38,519 nucleotides of DNA from Lachnospiraceae bacterium (GTDB taxonomy: Bacteria; Bacillota; Clostridia; Lachnospirales; Lachnospiraceae), in contig JAJQIL010000071.1 in the NCBI GenBank assembly GCA_021199235.1, positions 1 to 38,519 of the forward strand. The letters run 5' to 3'. This document shows positions 2,585 to 37,021 of the stretch, piece after piece. The notes beneath the pieces are model-generated. The model made no database searches, was not told the origin of the DNA, and was given only the letters and a program-made list of their open reading frames with translations. The stretch's first letter is position 1; every line of letters starts with the position of its first letter. Both the position numbers and the translations under genes were made by a program.

Positions 2585-4339
2585 ATGGAAAATAATGATT
2601 ACTATATGGAAGACGCCATGCGGATCCTGGCGGAGACCTACCATAAAATTCTGAAGATCAACCTCACGACCGATACCCATATTAACATCAAGGTCTATCA
2701 GTCGGAACAGGATGATTCGCACGGCTACGCACCAACGATATCCGACTGGCTGCGCAATTTTGCCGTCTCCGGCCAGGTCTATGAAAAGGATGTCGAACAA
2801 TATCTGCGTTTTACGGACATCAATACGATCAGAGCGCACTTTGAACACAGTGACGAATGCATACGGCTTCGCTATCGCCGCCGCACGAACGGCACCTTCC
2901 GCTGGGTCATGATGGAGCTTCTGAAGGCAAGCGATTATACGCCGGATAATCAGACGCTGATGCTGTACATACAGGATATACATGATGCGTATATCCGTGA
3001 ATTCGAAGCACATAAAGAACTGGAATACCTGAGCCGTTTTGACACTCTGACAGGTCTGAAGAATCTGTATTCTTACCGTTCCATGTGTGATATGGTCGCA
3101 TCGGAATCCTCCCCGCGGCCGATCGGAGTCATGTTTTCGGATCTGAACGGACTGAAAATCATCAATGACACGATGGGGCATGAAAAGGGGAATGAGTTTA
3201 TCTGCAGCTACGCCGCTATGCTCTGCAGCCACTTTACCAGATATGACTCTTTTCGTATCAGCGGCGATGAATTTCTGGTGGTCAGCATTGACGACGGGAA
3301 AGACGAGTTTGTAAAGCAGGCCGAAGCGTTCAAACACCTGCTTGAAGCGGACGGGCTGCCCCGCGCGGCAGTTGGATTTGCATGGATGAGCGGCAACCGC
3401 ATCGATGCTGTTACAGCAGAAGTGGAAACTCTTATGTACAGTGATAAACAGAGTTTTTATGAAGCGCATCCGGAGTATAAACACAGTGTCGTCGAACAGT
3501 CCTATCATGATGAGATGGCATCTCTGATCAGTGTTCTGACCGACTCCTACGAGGTACTTCTGCTTGCGGATCTGAACGAAGACACCTACCATATCATTAA
3601 GCAGAACTCAACCAGCATCAATGCCGGTGAGCCGCTAAACGGGATTTACTCGCGGCGAAATGACAATTTCTGCAACGGCTATATTTCCGATGATTTTCGG
3701 GAACTGCGCAGGAATATCGGCAGCATCTCCAATCTCCGGAAGCAGCTGCGCACAGAGAATCACATCATCTGTGATTATCGTCTCAAAAACGGGCAATGGA
3801 GAGAATCTGCTTTCTGGAAGACCGGCTCCGACATAGACGGAAAGCCCACTAAGATCATTTATTACTCACAGTCCATTGACCATTCGATGACAGAGCGTTT
3901 AAGCCGCCGCCGCACGGCAGAAAAAAATCTGGAACTGCTGGCGGGGCTGAATGAAGCCTATCGTTCCTTCAGTCTGATCAATCTGGACAATGAATATCTT
4001 TGTCTGCAGCAAAACAATACTCTGCCCGACCGCATCAGCGAGATGATGAACAATGTTCCATATGAAGCTATGATTCATAAATTTGCGGAGGAGTTTTTAG
4101 ATGAGGAGGACATCCCCTCTTTTATCGAAAAGACAAGTCTGATCCTTATCCGCAGGGAGCTGCAGCATAAAAAAAGCTACCGCGTCCTTTGCCGCATAAA
4201 GCCTGAAATGCAGTCTGTAGTCGGAGCCAGATATGAGAAGTTCAGCTACAGTTTTTCCGGTGTAAAAAACCACCGTTCCATCGTCATGGCGACTCGCGAT
4301 ATTACTGATGTGGTTGAATGGGGGCAAAATCTTATGTAA
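2585..4339 (+). CDS. PAS-like/GGDEF diguanylate cyclase, cytosolic
   Basis: Predicted diguanylate cyclase (2 GTP to c-di-GMP). The N-terminal PAS-like sensor region spans about residues 1-140. The GGDEF domain (about 152-310) opens with DTLTGLKN, has FSDLNGLKIINDTMGHEKGNE around 184-204, and carries the active-site variant SGDEF (226-230), which is common in active enzymes. No RxxD inhibitory site precedes the motif (the sequence there is TRYDSF). Two more PAS-like segments follow, at about 315-450 and 455-584. There is no signal peptide or membrane segment, so it should sense an intracellular cue. Start: AAAGGAGA at 2565-2572 fits the ATG at 2585 better than the in-frame ATG at 2549, which lies close to the repeat tract. 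584 aa. No EAL or HD-GYP partner is in the window. Confidence 0.85.
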   Translation: MENNDYYMEDAMRILAETYHKILKINLTTDTHINIKVYQSEQDDSHGYAPTISDWLRNFAVSGQVYEKDVEQYLRFTDINTIRAHFEHSDECIRLRYRRRTNGTFRWVMMELLKASDYTPDNQTLMLYIQDIHDAYIREFEAHKELEYLSRFDTLTGLKNLYSYRSMCDMVASESSPRPIGVMFSDLNGLKIINDTMGHEKGNEFICSYAAMLCSHFTRYDSFRISGDEFLVVSIDDGKDEFVKQAEAFKHLLEADGLPRAAVGFAWMSGNRIDAVTAEVETLMYSDKQSFYEAHPEYKHSVVEQSYHDEMASLISVLTDSYEVLLLADLNEDTYHIIKQNSTSINAGEPLNGIYSRRNDNFCNGYISDDFRELRRNIGSISNLRKQLRTENHIICDYRLKNGQWRESAFWKTGSDIDGKPTKIIYYSQSIDHSMTERLSRRRTAEKNLELLAGLNEAYRSFSLINLDNEYLCLQQNNTLPDRISEMMNNVPYEAMIHKFAEEFLDEEDIPSFIEKTSLILIRRELQHKKSYRVLCRIKPEMQSVVGARYEKFSYSFSGVKNHRSIVMATRDITDVVEWGQNLM

Positions 4340-17875: not shown

Positions 17876-19645
17876 TTATTTTTCAAAACAGCTGCCCCCG
17901 ATGAACTCCCGGATCAGAGAATTGTTCGGGATATCGTCACCCGGAATCGGAAGAAAATAATCCAGGAATTTCAGAAGGCGTTTGGCTTCCTCATATTCCG
18001 GTTCGCCGGGGCGGACAGAAAACAACAGCGGTTCCGCATACTGCTTAAGTACAGCAAGCTCATAGATCAGCGTGGAATTAAAAATGTAGTCCGCCGATTC
18101 CTGATAAGGGAAAATATACTGTTCTTCCCCGCGCCGCACGGAAGGCCACATGGCGATTGTCCCGTGTACGTCCGTACCGCGCATTCGCGCGTCGCGCACC
18201 ATACGCCGGATCAGACGGCCATCGGTAGTCGGGATCCGGTTGTGTTCATCTATATTCAGCTGCGTAAGTGCGCTGATATAGATTTTGACCTTGTGATCCG
18301 GGTCCAGACGATACGTCAGCCGGTCGTTCAGACAGTGAATTCCTTCAATAATAAGAATATCCTGAGGACCAAGGGTCCGTACATCTCCCTTATATTCCCT
18401 CTTGCCGGTCTTAAAATTGAAAACCGGAAGCTCGACCGTCTCACCGGCAAGGAGCGCCAGCATATCCTCATTCAGCTTTTCCGTATCAATGGCTTCCAGA
18501 CACTCAAAATTCGGCTTCCCATCCTCATCAAGCGGGGTGTGTTCCCGTTCCACAAAATAATTGTCCGCTTCGATCGGATGCGGCTTCAGTCCATACACGG
18601 ACAGCTGCGTCGAAAGACGGTGCGAAAATGTTGTCTTGCCGGAGGAAGACGGACCCGCGATCAATATGACCCGTTTTTCCGGCGACGCGGCAATCGAGGC
18701 CGCCATTTCCGCAATCTTTTTCTCATGATATGCTTCCTGGATCATGATCAGATCTTTGGTCCGGTGTTCCACAATATACGTGTTGAGGGCACCTACCGTC
18801 GGAATTTCCAGCTTTTTCCCCCATTCAAGTGCGTCCTTCTGTGTACGCCAGATCTTATTCTGTATTTCCGCGGAAACGCGGGCCTGCGCACAGCCGGCCA
18901 GCTTTCCCGGCTCCGCCTGCGAAGGGAAACAAAGGAGAAATCCGTCCCCATAAAGCCGCAGGTCAAAACAGGTCAGATAAGAAGCATCCGGCAGCATATA
19001 TCCATAAAAATAATCCTCGAACGACTCCAGATCATAAATATTTACCTTCGAGGAACGGCGGTAGCGGAACAGCTCTTCCTTATCGTACATCCGATACTCA
19101 TGAAATCTGGCGCAGGCTTCCCAGGTGGCGATCGTTTTTTTGCGGATCGGCGCCGCCTGGCGGACCAGCGTAAGCATGTACTGCTTCACTTCCTCCAGAA
19201 ACGCTTCTGTCAGGGGAATCCGTCCCTCCATCGTACAGTAATAGCTTTCCCCCACCGAAAAATGTACACCGACCTTGTCGATATTGCTGTTTTCTCCCGC
19301 GCCTGCGAAACGCAAAGCGTTTTCTGCATCGCAGGCGCAAGCTGCCGCCGATGCGCAGCGAGGGGGCATTTCTCCCGCCACATGATAGATTCCTTTTAAC
19401 ATCAGAAGCACCAGAGAGCGCCGGTATGTATCACAGCCCGCCTTATCTTTCAGCGTCACAAACCGAAGCTGGCAGCCCGGCGACGCTTTCTTATACAGCT
19501 CACGCAGCCGCCCGTCGGCATTTACCAGCGCGATCGGGCAGGAAAAATCTTTCTGGTGCGCATCCGCAATCTCCCTGTACGTGGTCCCTTCCGGACAGGT
19601 TTCCGGCAGCCCTTCCACATAAACCGTTATCGTTTTCTCATTCAC
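17876..19645 (-). CDS. Nucleoside kinase (uridine kinase-like with TGS/ThrRS-N-type N-terminus), carrying an in-frame repeat insertion
   Basis: Predicted nucleoside (uridine-like) kinase of the two-part Clostridia family. The N-terminus (about 1-60) is TGS-like (TITVYVEGLPETCPEGTTYREIAD). A threonyl-tRNA-synthetase second-domain-like region follows (VHFSVGESYYCTMEG). The C-terminal half is the kinase, with P-loop LIAGPSSSGKTTFSHRL, EADNYF, and LIIEGIHCLND. Twenty-six residues (EMPPRCASAA ... RFAGAG) interrupt the N-terminal region between HVAG and ENSNIDKV. Their DNA is a repeat element (19301-19368) flanked by TTTCTCCCGC direct repeats. The start is uncertain: GTG at 19645 or TTG at 19654, the latter better spaced from AGAGAGG. 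The frame extends to 19723, but that part is a palindromic repeat. Confidence 0.88.
   Translation of the reverse strand: MNEKTITVYVEGLPETCPEGTTYREIADAHQKDFSCPIALVNADGRLRELYKKASPGCQLRFVTLKDKAGCDTYRRSLVLLMLKGIYHVAGEMPPRCASAAACACDAENALRFAGAGENSNIDKVGVHFSVGESYYCTMEGRIPLTEAFLEEVKQYMLTLVRQAAPIRKKTIATWEACARFHEYRMYDKEELFRYRRSSKVNIYDLESFEDYFYGYMLPDASYLTCFDLRLYGDGFLLCFPSQAEPGKLAGCAQARVSAEIQNKIWRTQKDALEWGKKLEIPTVGALNTYIVEHRTKDLIMIQEAYHEKKIAEMAASIAASPEKRVILIAGPSSSGKTTFSHRLSTQLSVYGLKPHPIEADNYFVEREHTPLDEDGKPNFECLEAIDTEKLNEDMLALLAGETVELPVFNFKTGKREYKGDVRTLGPQDILIIEGIHCLNDRLTYRLDPDHKVKIYISALTQLNIDEHNRIPTTDGRLIRRMVRDARMRGTDVHGTIAMWPSVRRGEEQYIFPYQESADYIFNSTLIYELAVLKQYAEPLLFSVRPGEPEYEEAKRLLKFLDYFLPIPGDDIPNNSLIREFIGGSCFEK
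19291..19378 (-). mobile_element. 68-bp palindromic element inserted in frame, flanked by 10-bp direct repeats
   Basis: TTTCTCCCGC occurs at 19291-19300 and 19369-19378, flanking a 68-bp element (19301-19368). The element has a bulged hairpin: outer GCCTGCGA/TCGCAGGC, inner AACGC/GCGTT, loop AAA, 3' bulge TTCTGCA. It then has a tail containing GCCGATGCGCAGCGAGGGGG. Element plus one direct repeat is 78 bp (26 codons). Removing 78 bp leaves HVAG-ENSNIDKV, which resembles the uninterrupted family sequence. A second 68-bp copy lies at 36633-36700. Confidence 0.8.
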
Positions 19646-19687
19646 ACTGCCCAATTGTATACGCCTCTCTTTCTGTGTTGATGTTCT

Positions 19688-19739
19688 GTAACTATTCAGA
19701 ACCGTACCTCGCACCCGCTGCAAGGTACTGAACAGTTAC
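19688..19739 (-). repeat. Palindromic GTAACTGTTCAG element, complete 52-bp form
   Basis: GTAACTATTCAG (19688-19699) and CTGAACAGTTAC (19728-19739) are near-perfect terminal inverted repeats around a GTACCTCGCA/TGCAAGGTAC hairpin (9 of 10 pairs). This is the uninterrupted version of the element at 1541-1674. It lies in the gap between trmK and the nucleoside kinase gene, 43 bp upstream of the kinase start. Confidence 0.75.
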
Positions 19740-24660: not shown

Positions 24661-27099
24661 TTAATATTCAACCGTCTTCCTGTATCCTGCAATCCGGTAC
24701 CCGCTGCCGTTGCTCCGCACGATCAGCGCTCCGCAGTCCATCGTCGTATAGAGTGTAATATTTGCCGCGCGCAGCCTCTCCACGGCAGCCGTCGCCGGGT
24801 GTCCGTAAGAATTGTCTTTCCCGCAGGAAATAATTCCAAAAGACGGGGCCGCGGCCGCGAGAAATTCTTCAGAGGACGCACCTTTGGAACCGTGATGGCC
24901 CACCTTCAGCACGTCGCAGCTAAGATTGGCTCTGGATGCCGCCAGCGCCGTTTCCGACTCTCCCTCAAGATCGCCGGTATAAAGCATACGAAAAGAGCCG
25001 TATTGAAGCAGAAGCACCATGGAATCCTCATTTTTATCCCCGGAAAGAGCGTCCGAAGAAGGTGCCAGACAGGTAAGCGACCACCCGATGCCTCGGGAAC
25101 TCATGGCAGCAGCCGTATCTGTTCCGACAGCCATCGTTCCGATCGAGCCTCCCGCCTCCATACGCAGCACCCTGATTCCGGCATCCGCGGTGGCCGTGAT
25201 CAGTTCCGCAAAATCCGTCTCATCGGCCGTCGGCGGCAGGACAAGGTTTCTGACGGTGATTCCATGCGCATTCGTGCCCGCAAACCCTGGCAGATAGTCT
25301 TCGAGATATTCCTGTATCCCGCTGATGTGGTCACTGTCCGCATGGGAAAGAAAAACATAGTCCAGTCTGCTGATTCCGTAATATTTGACGGTCTGGCTGA
25401 TGCGGTATTCCCAGAGTCCGCTCACCGAGCTGCTTCCGCCGTCAATCAGGCAGTTGATTCCATCCGGCAGCATGAGCAGCGCACCGTCCCCCTGTCCGAC
25501 ATCCATGCTGACCGCGGTGAGCCCGCCGCGCGGGTGAAAGGCCATAAGGCAAATGCCAAACGCGATTGCGGACAGCCAAATCCAGTGCGCATTTCTGCCC
25601 GACTTTCGGGGCACTTTTTCTACTGTTCTACTCTTTCCTGTCGTCACAGCAGCCAAAACAAGCAGCGCATAATACGCCGCGATCTTCCAGACGGCCGGGC
25701 AGCCCGCAATCCAGATGGCGCATGGCAGCTGTCTTTCAAACGTACACAGCCCTTCAAACAGTCCGAGAAGATAGTAAACCGGAGCGGCAAGAAACGTTCC
25801 GAGCGGCACGCTGACCAGACCGGCCAGACAGGATACCAGGCCGGACGCCATCAGTGCGGACATCAGCGGGATCACAGCAAGATTCACGAGAATGCTCCAC
25901 AGCGCAGTCTGATAAAAGAACCAGAGTGTGATCGGGAGTGTTCCGATCCAGACACCCGCACCGCTGCAAAGAGCGTCCCAGCCCCGCGCCGCAGCATCTG
26001 CCAAACGCGAAGCGTTTTTCAAATGGTGGCTGCGTTCTCCGCTCTGTTTTGCCCCTGTCCGGCAGGTCTCAGGGTGTGTCTCCTCCTGAATGCCCGGCTT
26101 CCTGGAAGCCATTTTCCCGCGGAACGGATTCGCTGCCGTCAGGCGAGGCACGAGCATGGCGATAGACAGAATCGCGCCGAACGAAAGTAAAAAAGAAGAC
26201 TGCGTCGCTGCCCGGCCGTTTCCGGCAAGGATCACAGCCGCTGCAACAGCCGCTGCCGTCAGCATATCGTATTTACGCCCCACGATCTGTGAACCAAGCC
26301 AGATCGCAAACATGAGACTGGCACGCATGGACGAAATCCCGAATCCGGACATCATGGCATACAGGACCACCACAGCGGCAGCCGGAGGCGCCGCGGCAAA
26401 AAAAGGCAGCCGCATACGGCGCAGCAGACTGTAAATACACATGCCGATCATGCTGATGTGCAGGCCGCTGATGGAGATGATATGCGCAATGCCGCCTTCC
26501 TGATACAGCTGCTTCCATTCCTGCTCCATGAAGCTTTTTTCTCCGAGGCTGATAGCGGACACCGTGCGCGCCGCCTTCTCCTCCAGGATCTGCAGGTAGG
26601 AATACCGCAGTGCGCGCCGGAAGCGGGCCAGCATCCTTGAGAGGCTGCGCGTCCCCTGTTGAATGCCTGTCACCTCGGGACCCGTGATCCGTCCCACCGT
26701 ATTTTGCGCAAAGTAATAGCCGGGAGAATCAAACTGCCCCGGGTTTCCCGCTTCTTCAAACGAACGGTATGTACCTGTCACCCGGATGCGGTCGCCGGGC
26801 AGATATTCTACTGTATCAATTGTCATAATAAGCTTTAAGTCGGATGATAATGAACCGAGTGGTTTCTCATTTGTATAAAGAATAATAGAGTTTACAGAAA
26901 GGCGTATGCCTTCAGATACTGCATTGATTTCCGTCACGGTACCCTCAAAGGTCAGCGTACCGTCTGTGCCGGCCGTCTCGGCCAGAATCTCCTGAACCTC
27001 TTCCAGTGCACGGTCCCGTTCCGCGCCGCGCGCATTTCCGATCAGGGACAGGAGCATGGCGGCCGCCAGGCACAAAAAAGCCAGCGGTCGTTTTTTCAT
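24661..27099 (-). CDS. comEC: ComEC/Rec2 DNA-uptake channel with C-terminal MBL-fold nuclease domain
   Basis: Membrane channel for uptake of single-stranded DNA during transformation. The N-terminal DUF4131-like/OB region (about 45-150) is followed by the competence domain, with GIAHIISISGLHISMIGMCIYSLLRR and many membrane helices. The metallo-beta-lactamase-like domain starts at VSMDVGQGDGALLML and contains the metal motif LSHADSDHISGI and LKVGHHGSKGASSEEF. 812 aa. A polar, hairpin-encoded stretch (HLKNASRLADAAARGWDAL, near residues 355-373) lies in a loop between membrane segments and matches the repeat family. Start: GAAGGTGG lies upstream of the ATG. It is the last gene of a five-gene minus-strand set beginning with a ComEA-like lipoprotein. 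Confidence 0.92.
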   Translation of the reverse strand: MKKRPLAFLCLAAAMLLSLIGNARGAERDRALEEVQEILAETAGTDGTLTFEGTVTEINAVSEGIRLSVNSIILYTNEKPLGSLSSDLKLIMTIDTVEYLPGDRIRVTGTYRSFEEAGNPGQFDSPGYYFAQNTVGRITGPEVTGIQQGTRSLSRMLARFRRALRYSYLQILEEKAARTVSAISLGEKSFMEQEWKQLYQEGGIAHIISISGLHISMIGMCIYSLLRRMRLPFFAAAPPAAAVVVLYAMMSGFGISSMRASLMFAIWLGSQIVGRKYDMLTAAAVAAAVILAGNGRAATQSSFLLSFGAILSIAMLVPRLTAANPFRGKMASRKPGIQEETHPETCRTGAKQSGERSHHLKNASRLADAAARGWDALCSGAGVWIGTLPITLWFFYQTALWSILVNLAVIPLMSALMASGLVSCLAGLVSVPLGTFLAAPVYYLLGLFEGLCTFERQLPCAIWIAGCPAVWKIAAYYALLVLAAVTTGKSRTVEKVPRKSGRNAHWIWLSAIAFGICLMAFHPRGGLTAVSMDVGQGDGALLMLPDGINCLIDGGSSSVSGLWEYRISQTVKYYGISRLDYVFLSHADSDHISGIQEYLEDYLPGFAGTNAHGITVRNLVLPPTADETDFAELITATADAGIRVLRMEAGGSIGTMAVGTDTAAAMSSRGIGWSLTCLAPSSDALSGDKNEDSMVLLLQYGSFRMLYTGDLEGESETALAASRANLSCDVLKVGHHGSKGASSEEFLAAAAPSFGIISCGKDNSYGHPATAAVERLRAANITLYTTMDCGALIVRSNGSGYRIAGYRKTVEY
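25994..26033 (-). repeat. Bulged hairpin (asymmetric-bulge family) inside comEC
   Basis: Plus-strand reading: outer GCATCTGCC/GGTGGCTGC (8 of 9 pairs, two of them G-T wobbles), inner AAACGC/GCGTTT (perfect), loop GAA, and 3' bulge TTCAAAT of 7 nt. It encodes KNASRLAD on the minus strand, similar to AENALRFA and VENAARLS of the other two coding copies. It lacks the conserved 27-nt tail. Confidence 0.55.
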
Positions 27100-36299: not shown

Positions 36300-36932
36300 T
36301 CACAGCGCATTCACGCCCCTGCAGGTCCTGTAGCGCGATCTTCGACGGTGCATTTCCTGCAACAGCATCACCCGGATGAGATCCTCCGGCGCGCTGTCAC
36401 CGCCTGCTTTTTTACGCGCCGCGTCGGCAATTCTTTTTTGCAGCGTGTAGATGGTCGTATAGTCCGGATATTCATCAAACATGGGACTCCCCTCATATTC
36501 CAGCCGGTCGCATTCCTCCTCAACCAGTTCCAGCAGTTCTTTCGCCGCATTCGGGTACATTCCCTGCAGCATGCGGAAATCCCGTTCTTCCGAAAGCTCG
36601 CCTGCCGGCAGCATACCCATGCATGCTGCAGCGCTGCTCAAACGCGCAGCGTTTTCTACATGAGCAGCGCGTTCTGCCGCCGATGCGCAGCGAGGGGGCA
36701 TTTCCAAGTAGCCATAGATTTCTTCACCGGAGCCGAAACCGCCCGCAGGTTTTCTGAAACCCGTGTCACCAGAAAAGTTTCCACTGGCACAGGCCGTGCA
36801 TCCAACACGCATTCCGCCCACTGTCTCCATGGGATCAGGAACATTTTCTCCGCTTTGATTTCCGGTCCCTGTGTTAATTTCCCTTTGTTTCTGTCCAGCT
36901 TCCCTGTTTCTTTTATCACTTAGATAACCCAT
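36300..36932 (-). CDS. Conserved hypothetical protein carrying an in-frame repeat element
   Basis: 210 aa, no named family. The C-terminal 100 residues look like a conserved core: RDFRMLQGMYPNAAKELLELVEEECDRLEYEGSPMFDEYPD, then a helix and EDLIRVMLLQEMHRRRSRYR. I recall similar small proteins in Lachnospiraceae without known function. The N-terminal half is Gly/Ser-rich and low in complexity, and contains EMPPRCASAAERAAHVENAAR, encoded by the 68-bp palindromic element (36633-36700) also found in the nucleoside kinase. No signal peptide or membrane helix. The ribosome site is weak (AGGTGCGG before the ATG), so the start is uncertain. Confidence 0.65.
   Translation of the reverse strand: MGYLSDKRNREAGQKQREINTGTGNQSGENVPDPMETVGGMRVGCTACASGNFSGDTGFRKPAGGFGSGEEIYGYLEMPPRCASAAERAAHVENAARLSSAAACMGMLPAGELSEERDFRMLQGMYPNAAKELLELVEEECDRLEYEGSPMFDEYPDYTTIYTLQKRIADAARKKAGGDSAPEDLIRVMLLQEMHRRRSRYRTCRGVNAL
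36633..36700 (-). mobile_element. Second 68-bp palindromic element, inside a coding region
   Basis: Outer stem GCTGCTCA/TGAGCAGC (extendable by GC/GC to 10 bp), inner AACGC/GCGTT, loop GCA, 3' bulge TTCTACA, then the 27-nt tail identical to the copy at 19301-19368. The outer stem differs at five of eight base pairs from the other copy, all compensated. No flanking direct repeat is evident here. Confidence 0.75.
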
Positions 36933-37021
36933 AACCGCACCTGTAGCTATTCCATTGCTTTATCTTATGCTTCAAAAAGAAAAACGTTCCATTTACATGC
37001 GCCGAGCCGCTCAATTCCCGC

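Follow-up and report, generated by a model that had tools for sequence, protein, structure and literature searches.

The best-known cases of palindromic elements read in frame within genes come from Rickettsia and Wolbachia; for REPs and other small repeats, reports are scattered. The Rickettsia palindromic elements (RPEs), which are approximately 100 to 150 bp long and come from another phylum, and the Wolbachia elements (WPEs) occur as palindromic repeats in frame in unrelated genes (PMC2229807, PMC3767692, PMC10969869), and CGTC is described at one end of the RPEs of R. conorii (PMC3733652). Intragenic GTAG/CGTC REPs are likewise short palindromes, some of which encode residues inside genes; Proteobacteria, Cyanobacteria, Chloroflexi, and the PVC group are named as hosts of GTAG REPs, whereas the word "Clostridium" is absent from that text (PMC3733652). 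PARCEL repeats are palindromic DNA encoding units of approximately 25 residues and form tandem arrays in ORFs of unknown function (PMC2996958), and the bacterial MITEs RUP, ERIC, and Correia are small, non-autonomous, and dispersed, some with ORFs fused in frame (PMC2229807). The GA-cis RNA motif is catalogued as a structured RNA and appears intergenic in three other genera; the table row in the Rfam 15 paper that names it is silent on mobility or coding.

The window analyzed here, a stretch of 38,519 nucleotides from a Lachnospiraceae genome, contains on its minus strand a gene for a uridine/nucleoside kinase-family protein (17876..19645; 589 aa plus the stop codon from a putative GTG start at 19645, or 615 aa if counted from a TTG), which has a PRK/uridine kinase domain in its C-terminal half (Pfam PF00485, 6.2e-19). 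Within this gene, two exact copies of the 10-bp direct repeat TTTCTCCCGC, the right-hand one relative to the gene at 19291..19300 and the left-hand one at 19369..19378, enclose 68 bp and give a period of 78 bp, or 26 codons, through which the minus-strand reading frame is continuous; both the arrangement and the coordinates described in the earlier note were confirmed. A covariance model built from 23 aligned copies placed the element core on the minus strand at 19299..19372 (74 nt; in-frame reading EMPPRCASAAACACDAENALRFAGA; 96.7 bits), the top match in the genome, with this copy also belonging to the training set of the model. Reading along the minus strand, the core comprises a short 5' hairpin (GCC.CC ... 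GG.GGC; 19344..19367) that varies little, the 5' arm of an outer 9-bp stem (19330..19338) that is variable between copies, the near-constant inner hairpin ACGC-TTT-GCGT (19310..19320), and the 3' arm of the outer stem (19299..19307). A search of 18900-19700 for inverted repeats of at least 12 nt, blind to shorter ones, found none. The exact border between element and target is ambiguous in the kinase, because bases of the consensus start, GAAAY, overlap the 10-bp repeat.

Orthologous kinases read HVAGENSNIEKV or similar at this site and lack the 26 residues, the form that had been expected of the uninterrupted family sequence, and the closest genome compared (G008) has a single plain GTGGCGGGGGAGAACAGC in place of the window's two repeats and insert. 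The residues were absent from all 28 orthologous loci covering the site in a set of 29 other loci (L058 was truncated); in a second set, which overlaps the first, all 80 loci covered the site and none had five or more residues there, the named top matches being Lachnospiraceae or Clostridiales metagenome assemblies. These absences support the proposal of a recent, frame-preserving palindromic insertion. AlphaFold, given 30 sequences, modeled the kinase with a mean pLDDT of 85.5 and a pTM of 0.84; residues 93-119, which approximately correspond to the insert, had a pLDDT of <50 and no secondary structure, following a helix (68-91) and preceding a strand (122-131), a prediction that fits a tolerated floppy loop.

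Other kinases of the set carried extra sequence of their own. The orthologue of another species, L068, had two model matches inside the gene (1130-1200 and 1766-1836), at positions other than that of the window's insert and accompanied by long extra stretches, and further matches upstream of the gene (497-615 and 897-968). The kinases of L065, L066, L069, and L100 had a variable stretch after reference position 242, between the kinase halves, which holds LPPTEP-like repeats in L066 and may be another repeat family.

Further genomic copies, which the earlier note had suggested looking for, proved more widely spread than could be seen from the window. BLASTN with the kinase insert identified 46 places in the same genome (E ≤ 10; the best 40 of 53 candidates were scored), and the covariance model gave at least 96 matches (E ≤ 0.1; the best 150 of 2,618 candidates were scored), so the kinase insert is not a chance occurrence. 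In gene orientation, the copies are laid out as GAAAYGCCCCCTCGC-n-TCGGCGGCAG-n-[9-nt arm]-ATGCAGAAAACGCTnnGCGTTT-[9-nt arm]. Most matches were 70 to 74 nt long and some were 110 to 113 nt, a number of the latter containing an extra internal module that reads DIPPEGRGCHPARA; tandem copies with a period of 78 also exist. The window itself holds a second copy (36631..36704, minus strand), in frame in an ORF at 36303-36959 that has no Pfam family, and its 27 residues are missing from the orthologues in G008 and G014.

Several variants and unrelated features were seen in passing. At L205, on contig C125 of the same genome, a period-78 tandem array at approximately 3716-4004 lies in a 523-aa frame and contains an assembly gap (a run of N). 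At L197, L167, and L174, and in variant form at L198, the copies belong to a subfamily whose 5' module is RSALN(D/N)RPLDDQRPR instead of ETPPR; its host genes, among them those for M32 peptidase and GalT, are not related to one another. A weak model match in the window (25994-26080; E = 6.6e-4), which aligns through at the same place in G008 and G014, is probably a chance match or a very old copy. Two other short dispersed repeats, L183:2902-2973 and L207:6411-6466, both of which match G008, G013, and G014 at many places, seem unrelated to the kinase element, and L168:728-820 (minus strand) matched the TPP riboswitch at 53.3 bits against a gathering score of 54.3.

The surroundings of 92 of the 96 matches were examined (C110, C22, C73, and C23:112490 were left out), with the frame assigned by the longest reading frame through each copy and ORF calls depending largely on length. 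Among the 72 best copies, 31 were in the frame and on the strand of the kinase (s0), 4 were in s1, 6 were in s2, and 5, 3, and 5 were in the opposite-strand frames a0, a1, and a2, respectively; 9 were ambiguous, including the kinase copy itself, which has a 411-aa frame opposite, and 9 had no ORF of at least 150 aa. One strand and frame was thus common to 31 of the 54 copies having one clear frame. For 69 copies from other genomes, which were picked among the best-scoring and are biased to the subfamily of the kinase copy, the counts were 42 in s0, 4 in a1, 1 each in a2, s1, and s2, 9 ambiguous, and 11 without an ORF. Stop codons alone were rejected as the source of the frame bias, since the other frames are open through many copies.

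A Pfam family was found in 27 of 30 chosen host ORFs and in 8 of 10 further ORFs chosen for the other frames. The hosts, named from their Pfam families, include PurL, HemB, NAD synthase, WhiA, a penicillin-binding protein (PBP), UvrD, and alanine racemase, and for HemB, an M32 peptidase, an ABC ATPase, UvrD, the PurL linker, the PBP transpeptidase, GH94, a GH2 domain, and alanine racemase, the domain match was split or extended where the copy lies. Several copies were in other frames, on the opposite strand, or outside ORFs; those in other frames or on the opposite strand crossed ORFs with DnaX, HemD, MutL, alanine racemase, Mfd, and PriA domains.

The earlier note had known of no named equivalent in Clostridia; the family, however, matches the Rfam entry GA-cis (RF02987). 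The kinase copy gave a full-length match (1-88 of 88) at 19295..19377 on the plus strand, opposite to the gene, which at 28.6 bits (E = 0.0008) fell below the gathering score of 34.7 bits. Twenty other chosen loci of the genome, among them that of the second window copy (L143; 36.8 bits, above the gathering score), contained 22 GA-cis matches (E ≤ 0.1), every one on an element copy, and 20 of the 22 passed the gathering score end to end, reaching up to 62.7 bits. By covariance model, the element family is GA-cis, matched on its other strand. Of the clear copies of this genome, 41 had the GA-cis strand opposite to their gene and 13 had it on the strand of the gene.

At E ≤ 1e-5, GA-cis was found in 4 of 391 genomes of the class, namely, this genome and three genomes of other Lachnospiraceae genera (at least 4, 1, and 1 matches). 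All six loci of these three genera appear intergenic by ORF layout only, although one is spanned by an opposite-strand frame of 148 aa, and their stems differ between copies and remain largely complementary. An intergenic position of GA-cis would suggest cis-regulation, and most copies in the present genome are located otherwise. In five of the six loci (L361-L363, L365, L368, and L370), a tiny ORF lies inside the hairpin after AGGAGG or GGGAGG and consists of ATG, three codons, and a stop (ATG ACG AAG TCA TGA or a close variant); no such ORF was seen in the 23 aligned copies.

Within the genus, matches at E ≤ 1e-4 were present in 23 of 47 genomes, with at least 10 matches in 17 genomes (up to at least 80) and 1 to 8 in 6, and none were found in the other 24, most of the genomes compared being draft or metagenome assemblies. 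Among 200 genomes of the family, the present genome and two others, with one match each, had matches at E ≤ 1e-5. All copy counts are lower bounds, since the best 104, 24, and 10 candidates per genome were scored for the genus, family, and class, respectively. High copy number was seen only in part of one genus. No earlier description of GA-cis as mobile or intragenic was found in the literature searched, which did not cover what is reportedly the discovery paper, Weinberg et al. 2017; as far as searched, it is new that the copies have spread inside genes, that they prefer GA (described below), and that a catalogued RNA can be read as a mobile element.

Compared with the GA-cis loci of other genera, the copies of this genome, although of the same family by covariance model, are mostly intragenic, more often have the GA-cis strand opposite to the gene, and number tens per genome. 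The parallel with RPEs that had been drawn for the kinase insert holds for behavior, namely, in-frame insertion into unrelated genes, but not for length, with inserts of 75 to 117 bp, nor for the CGTC end; the element can thus be said to work like RPEs, in a comparison limited to behavior. A target preference is visible in the GA-cis-family copies, in which they differ from RPEs. Whereas PARCELs form tandem arrays, these copies are mostly dispersed inserts in known enzymes, with a few tandem cases such as that on C125. Like MITEs, the copies are small and dispersed and would be non-autonomous; no terminal inverted repeat of at least 12 nt was found around the kinase copy, and target duplication is irregular.

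Ten coding copies (the kinase copy and nine others; c51 was left out of the count) had an empty site in the same gene of a relative. By protein alignment, the inserts were 26, 27, 26, 25, 26, 26, 26, 39, 25, and 38 residues long, all multiples of three at the nucleotide level (75, 78, 81, 114, or 117 bp), with eight of 75 to 81 bp and two of 114 to 117 bp; nucleotide breakpoint placement had misplaced the kinase insert (76 or 70 bp, not 78), and the c44 insert aligned as 16 residues against G013 and 25 against G008. The c14 copy was present also in G008 with the site empty in G013, and c1, c4, c5, c12, c79, c82, c92, and c94 aligned through in at least one relative, some of them partly. Because some copies are common to relatives and others have empty sites, the insertions differ in age. 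An orthologous place was available for 24 of the 92 located copies, the stretches in relatives having been chosen by synteny and not at random.

Exact direct repeats at the empty-site insertions were longest in the kinase (10 bp), followed by the PBP copy c13 (9 bp), c14 (7 bp), and c7 (6 bp); no clear direct repeat was found in c3, c8, c10, c44, and c63, and c38 sits in a tandem context. Duplication was also assessed by comparing the left and right flanks of each copy at a fixed offset with mismatched pairs. For the 74-nt copies of this genome, with the tandem copies c6, c9, and c31 taken out after inspection, the agreement at offset 78 was 0.442 versus 0.368 in the flank (p < 0.0002) and 0.313 versus 0.268 in the arm zone (p = 0.004); at other offsets, p exceeded 0.05 except in the arm zone at 84 (p = 0.03), and the distant flank gave p = 0.24. 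By copy length, the peak lay at offset 75 for the ten copies of 71 nt (p = 0.03) and at offset 78 for the seven of 73 nt (p = 0.001). Copies from other genomes showed a weak signal at offset 78 (flank, 0.417 versus 0.402, p = 0.087; arm zone, p = 0.011), and offsets 72, 75, and 76 did as well (p = 0.02 to 0.03), so no family-wide duplication was established. The 10-bp target-site-like duplication noticed in the kinase is thus exact there but not general, and a fixed duplication of this length was not upheld as a family rule. A stretch resembling the stem arm, as if the arm had been copied from the target, was present in the c60 empty site of G008 and in the c36 (alanine racemase) site of G014, and none was clear in the remaining empty sites inspected.

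A preference for GA was the stronger target signal. The codon directly after the 26-codon insert was GAN (Asp/Glu) in 32 of 70 copies (12 of 25 in this genome and 20 of 45 elsewhere), against a background of 13.4%; the associated p value of 5e-11 is too small, because several of the other-genome copies are orthologous. The excess of GA codons extends beyond the tested position, since the codon preceding it has one in 20 of 70 copies and the codon ahead of the element in 19 of 70. A GA target, usually at codon positions 1 and 2 (Asp/Glu), would alone push insertions into one coding-strand frame.

The outer 9-bp stem was more variable, at a mean entropy of 1.09 bits, than the remainder of the element, at 0.64 bits, yet its arms stayed paired. 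Among 104 distinct copies out of 109, 56 different arms were found, and 74 of the 104 formed perfect 9-bp stems; double-sided changes in the outer and inner stems together numbered 57 cells, versus 15.6 in shuffles. The 936 stem cells comprised 879 Watson-Crick pairs, 23 G-U pairs (16 on the GA-cis strand and 7 on the other), and 34 other mismatches. An RNA that selection maintains generally goes through G-U pairs. Because G-U pairs were rarer here than plain mismatches and were present on both strands, the palindromy was read as maintained at the level of DNA, where arm complementarity would be restored by hairpin template switching or through a folded intermediate during mobilization.

Very probably, the kinase insert belongs to a mobile, non-autonomous palindromic element, of the GA-cis family, whose copies have multiplied within a single clade of gut Lachnospiraceae. 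Copies tend to enter at GA dinucleotides, which in coding frames commonly occupy positions 1 and 2 of Asp/Glu codons, and, because the insert length is a multiple of three in all ten empty-site cases and the main frame usually lacks stops, the host gene gains 25 to 39 residues and stays open. Host proteins with inserts should still work, and copies may survive in genes through neutrality combined with purging of out-of-frame copies. A trans-acting enzyme would move the element; no mobilizing gene was found in a search that covered Y1_Tnp in the 47 genus genomes. A possible though doubtful extension is that the family represents an element class adapted to genes, which would target Asp/Glu codons, carry a frame of length 3n that is mostly free of stops, and have one stem arm rewritten from the other at each move via a folded single-stranded intermediate, so that the palindromy, recorded in Rfam as RNA covariation, would be a by-product of an undescribed transposition chemistry.

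Passive spread by template switching or microhomology recombination, with no dedicated mobilization enzyme, would fit the varying length of the direct repeats, the partial resemblance of some targets to the GGAAA end of the element, and the tandem copies; it is nevertheless unlikely, as the GA preference, the predominance of 78-bp inserts, and the 10 to 80 copies in each of 17 genomes suggest an active process. We consider it improbable that GA-cis is a functional structured RNA, a cis-regulator or antisense RNA, whose copies are kept for the RNA and merely tolerated by genes. The Rfam entry as an sRNA/structured RNA, the covarying arms, the six loci apparently between long ORFs in three other genera, and the small G-U excess on the GA-cis strand all point that way, but in this genome the clear copies are found within unrelated genes, to which the GA-cis strand is mostly opposite, G-U pairs are scarcer than other mismatches, and ten coding copies are missing at a relative's orthologous site.

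Short palindromes and tandem copies also recall REPs, intragenic examples of which are on record (PMC3733652), and Y1_Tnp was present in 25 of the 47 genus genomes, in a pattern that does not follow element copy number. Whereas REPs have a tag tetranucleotide and a Y1 transposase, these copies have neither a conserved tag nor an associated Y1: a conserved GTAG/CTAC or CGTC/GACG end was not found, the motifs lying within 8 nt of an end in only 1 and 4, respectively, of the 23 aligned copies. In addition, Y1_Tnp was not found in 6 of the 17 element-rich genomes (G013, G031, G061, G062, G063, and G028), so RAYT/IS200 mobilization is not supported as a standing requirement, and in the present genome Y1_Tnp was represented only by fragments of a disrupted gene where a contig ends. 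Mobilization of a REP-type element by an IS200-like (Y1/RAYT) transposase accordingly merits very little credence. Less probable still is selection on the peptide, as a conserved protein motif or domain duplication: the dominance of one frame (ETPPRCASAADR..DAENAAR) would be expected, but other frames and the opposite strand cross real genes (DnaX, MutL, alanine racemase, and PriA), copies outside long ORFs retain the DNA, and the hosts are unrelated.

With the kinase insert read as a copy of a mobile GA-cis-family element, the in-gene behavior known from Rickettsia and Wolbachia is found in gut Clostridia as well, with tens of copies per genome, several of them datable against empty sites in sister species. 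Because the copies are numerous and several can be dated, the old question of how elements of this kind get into genes and leave them intact can now be put to the test. The family also carries a warning that covariation in catalogues of candidate RNAs can stem from mobile palindromes, and GA-cis is a concrete family to re-examine in this light.
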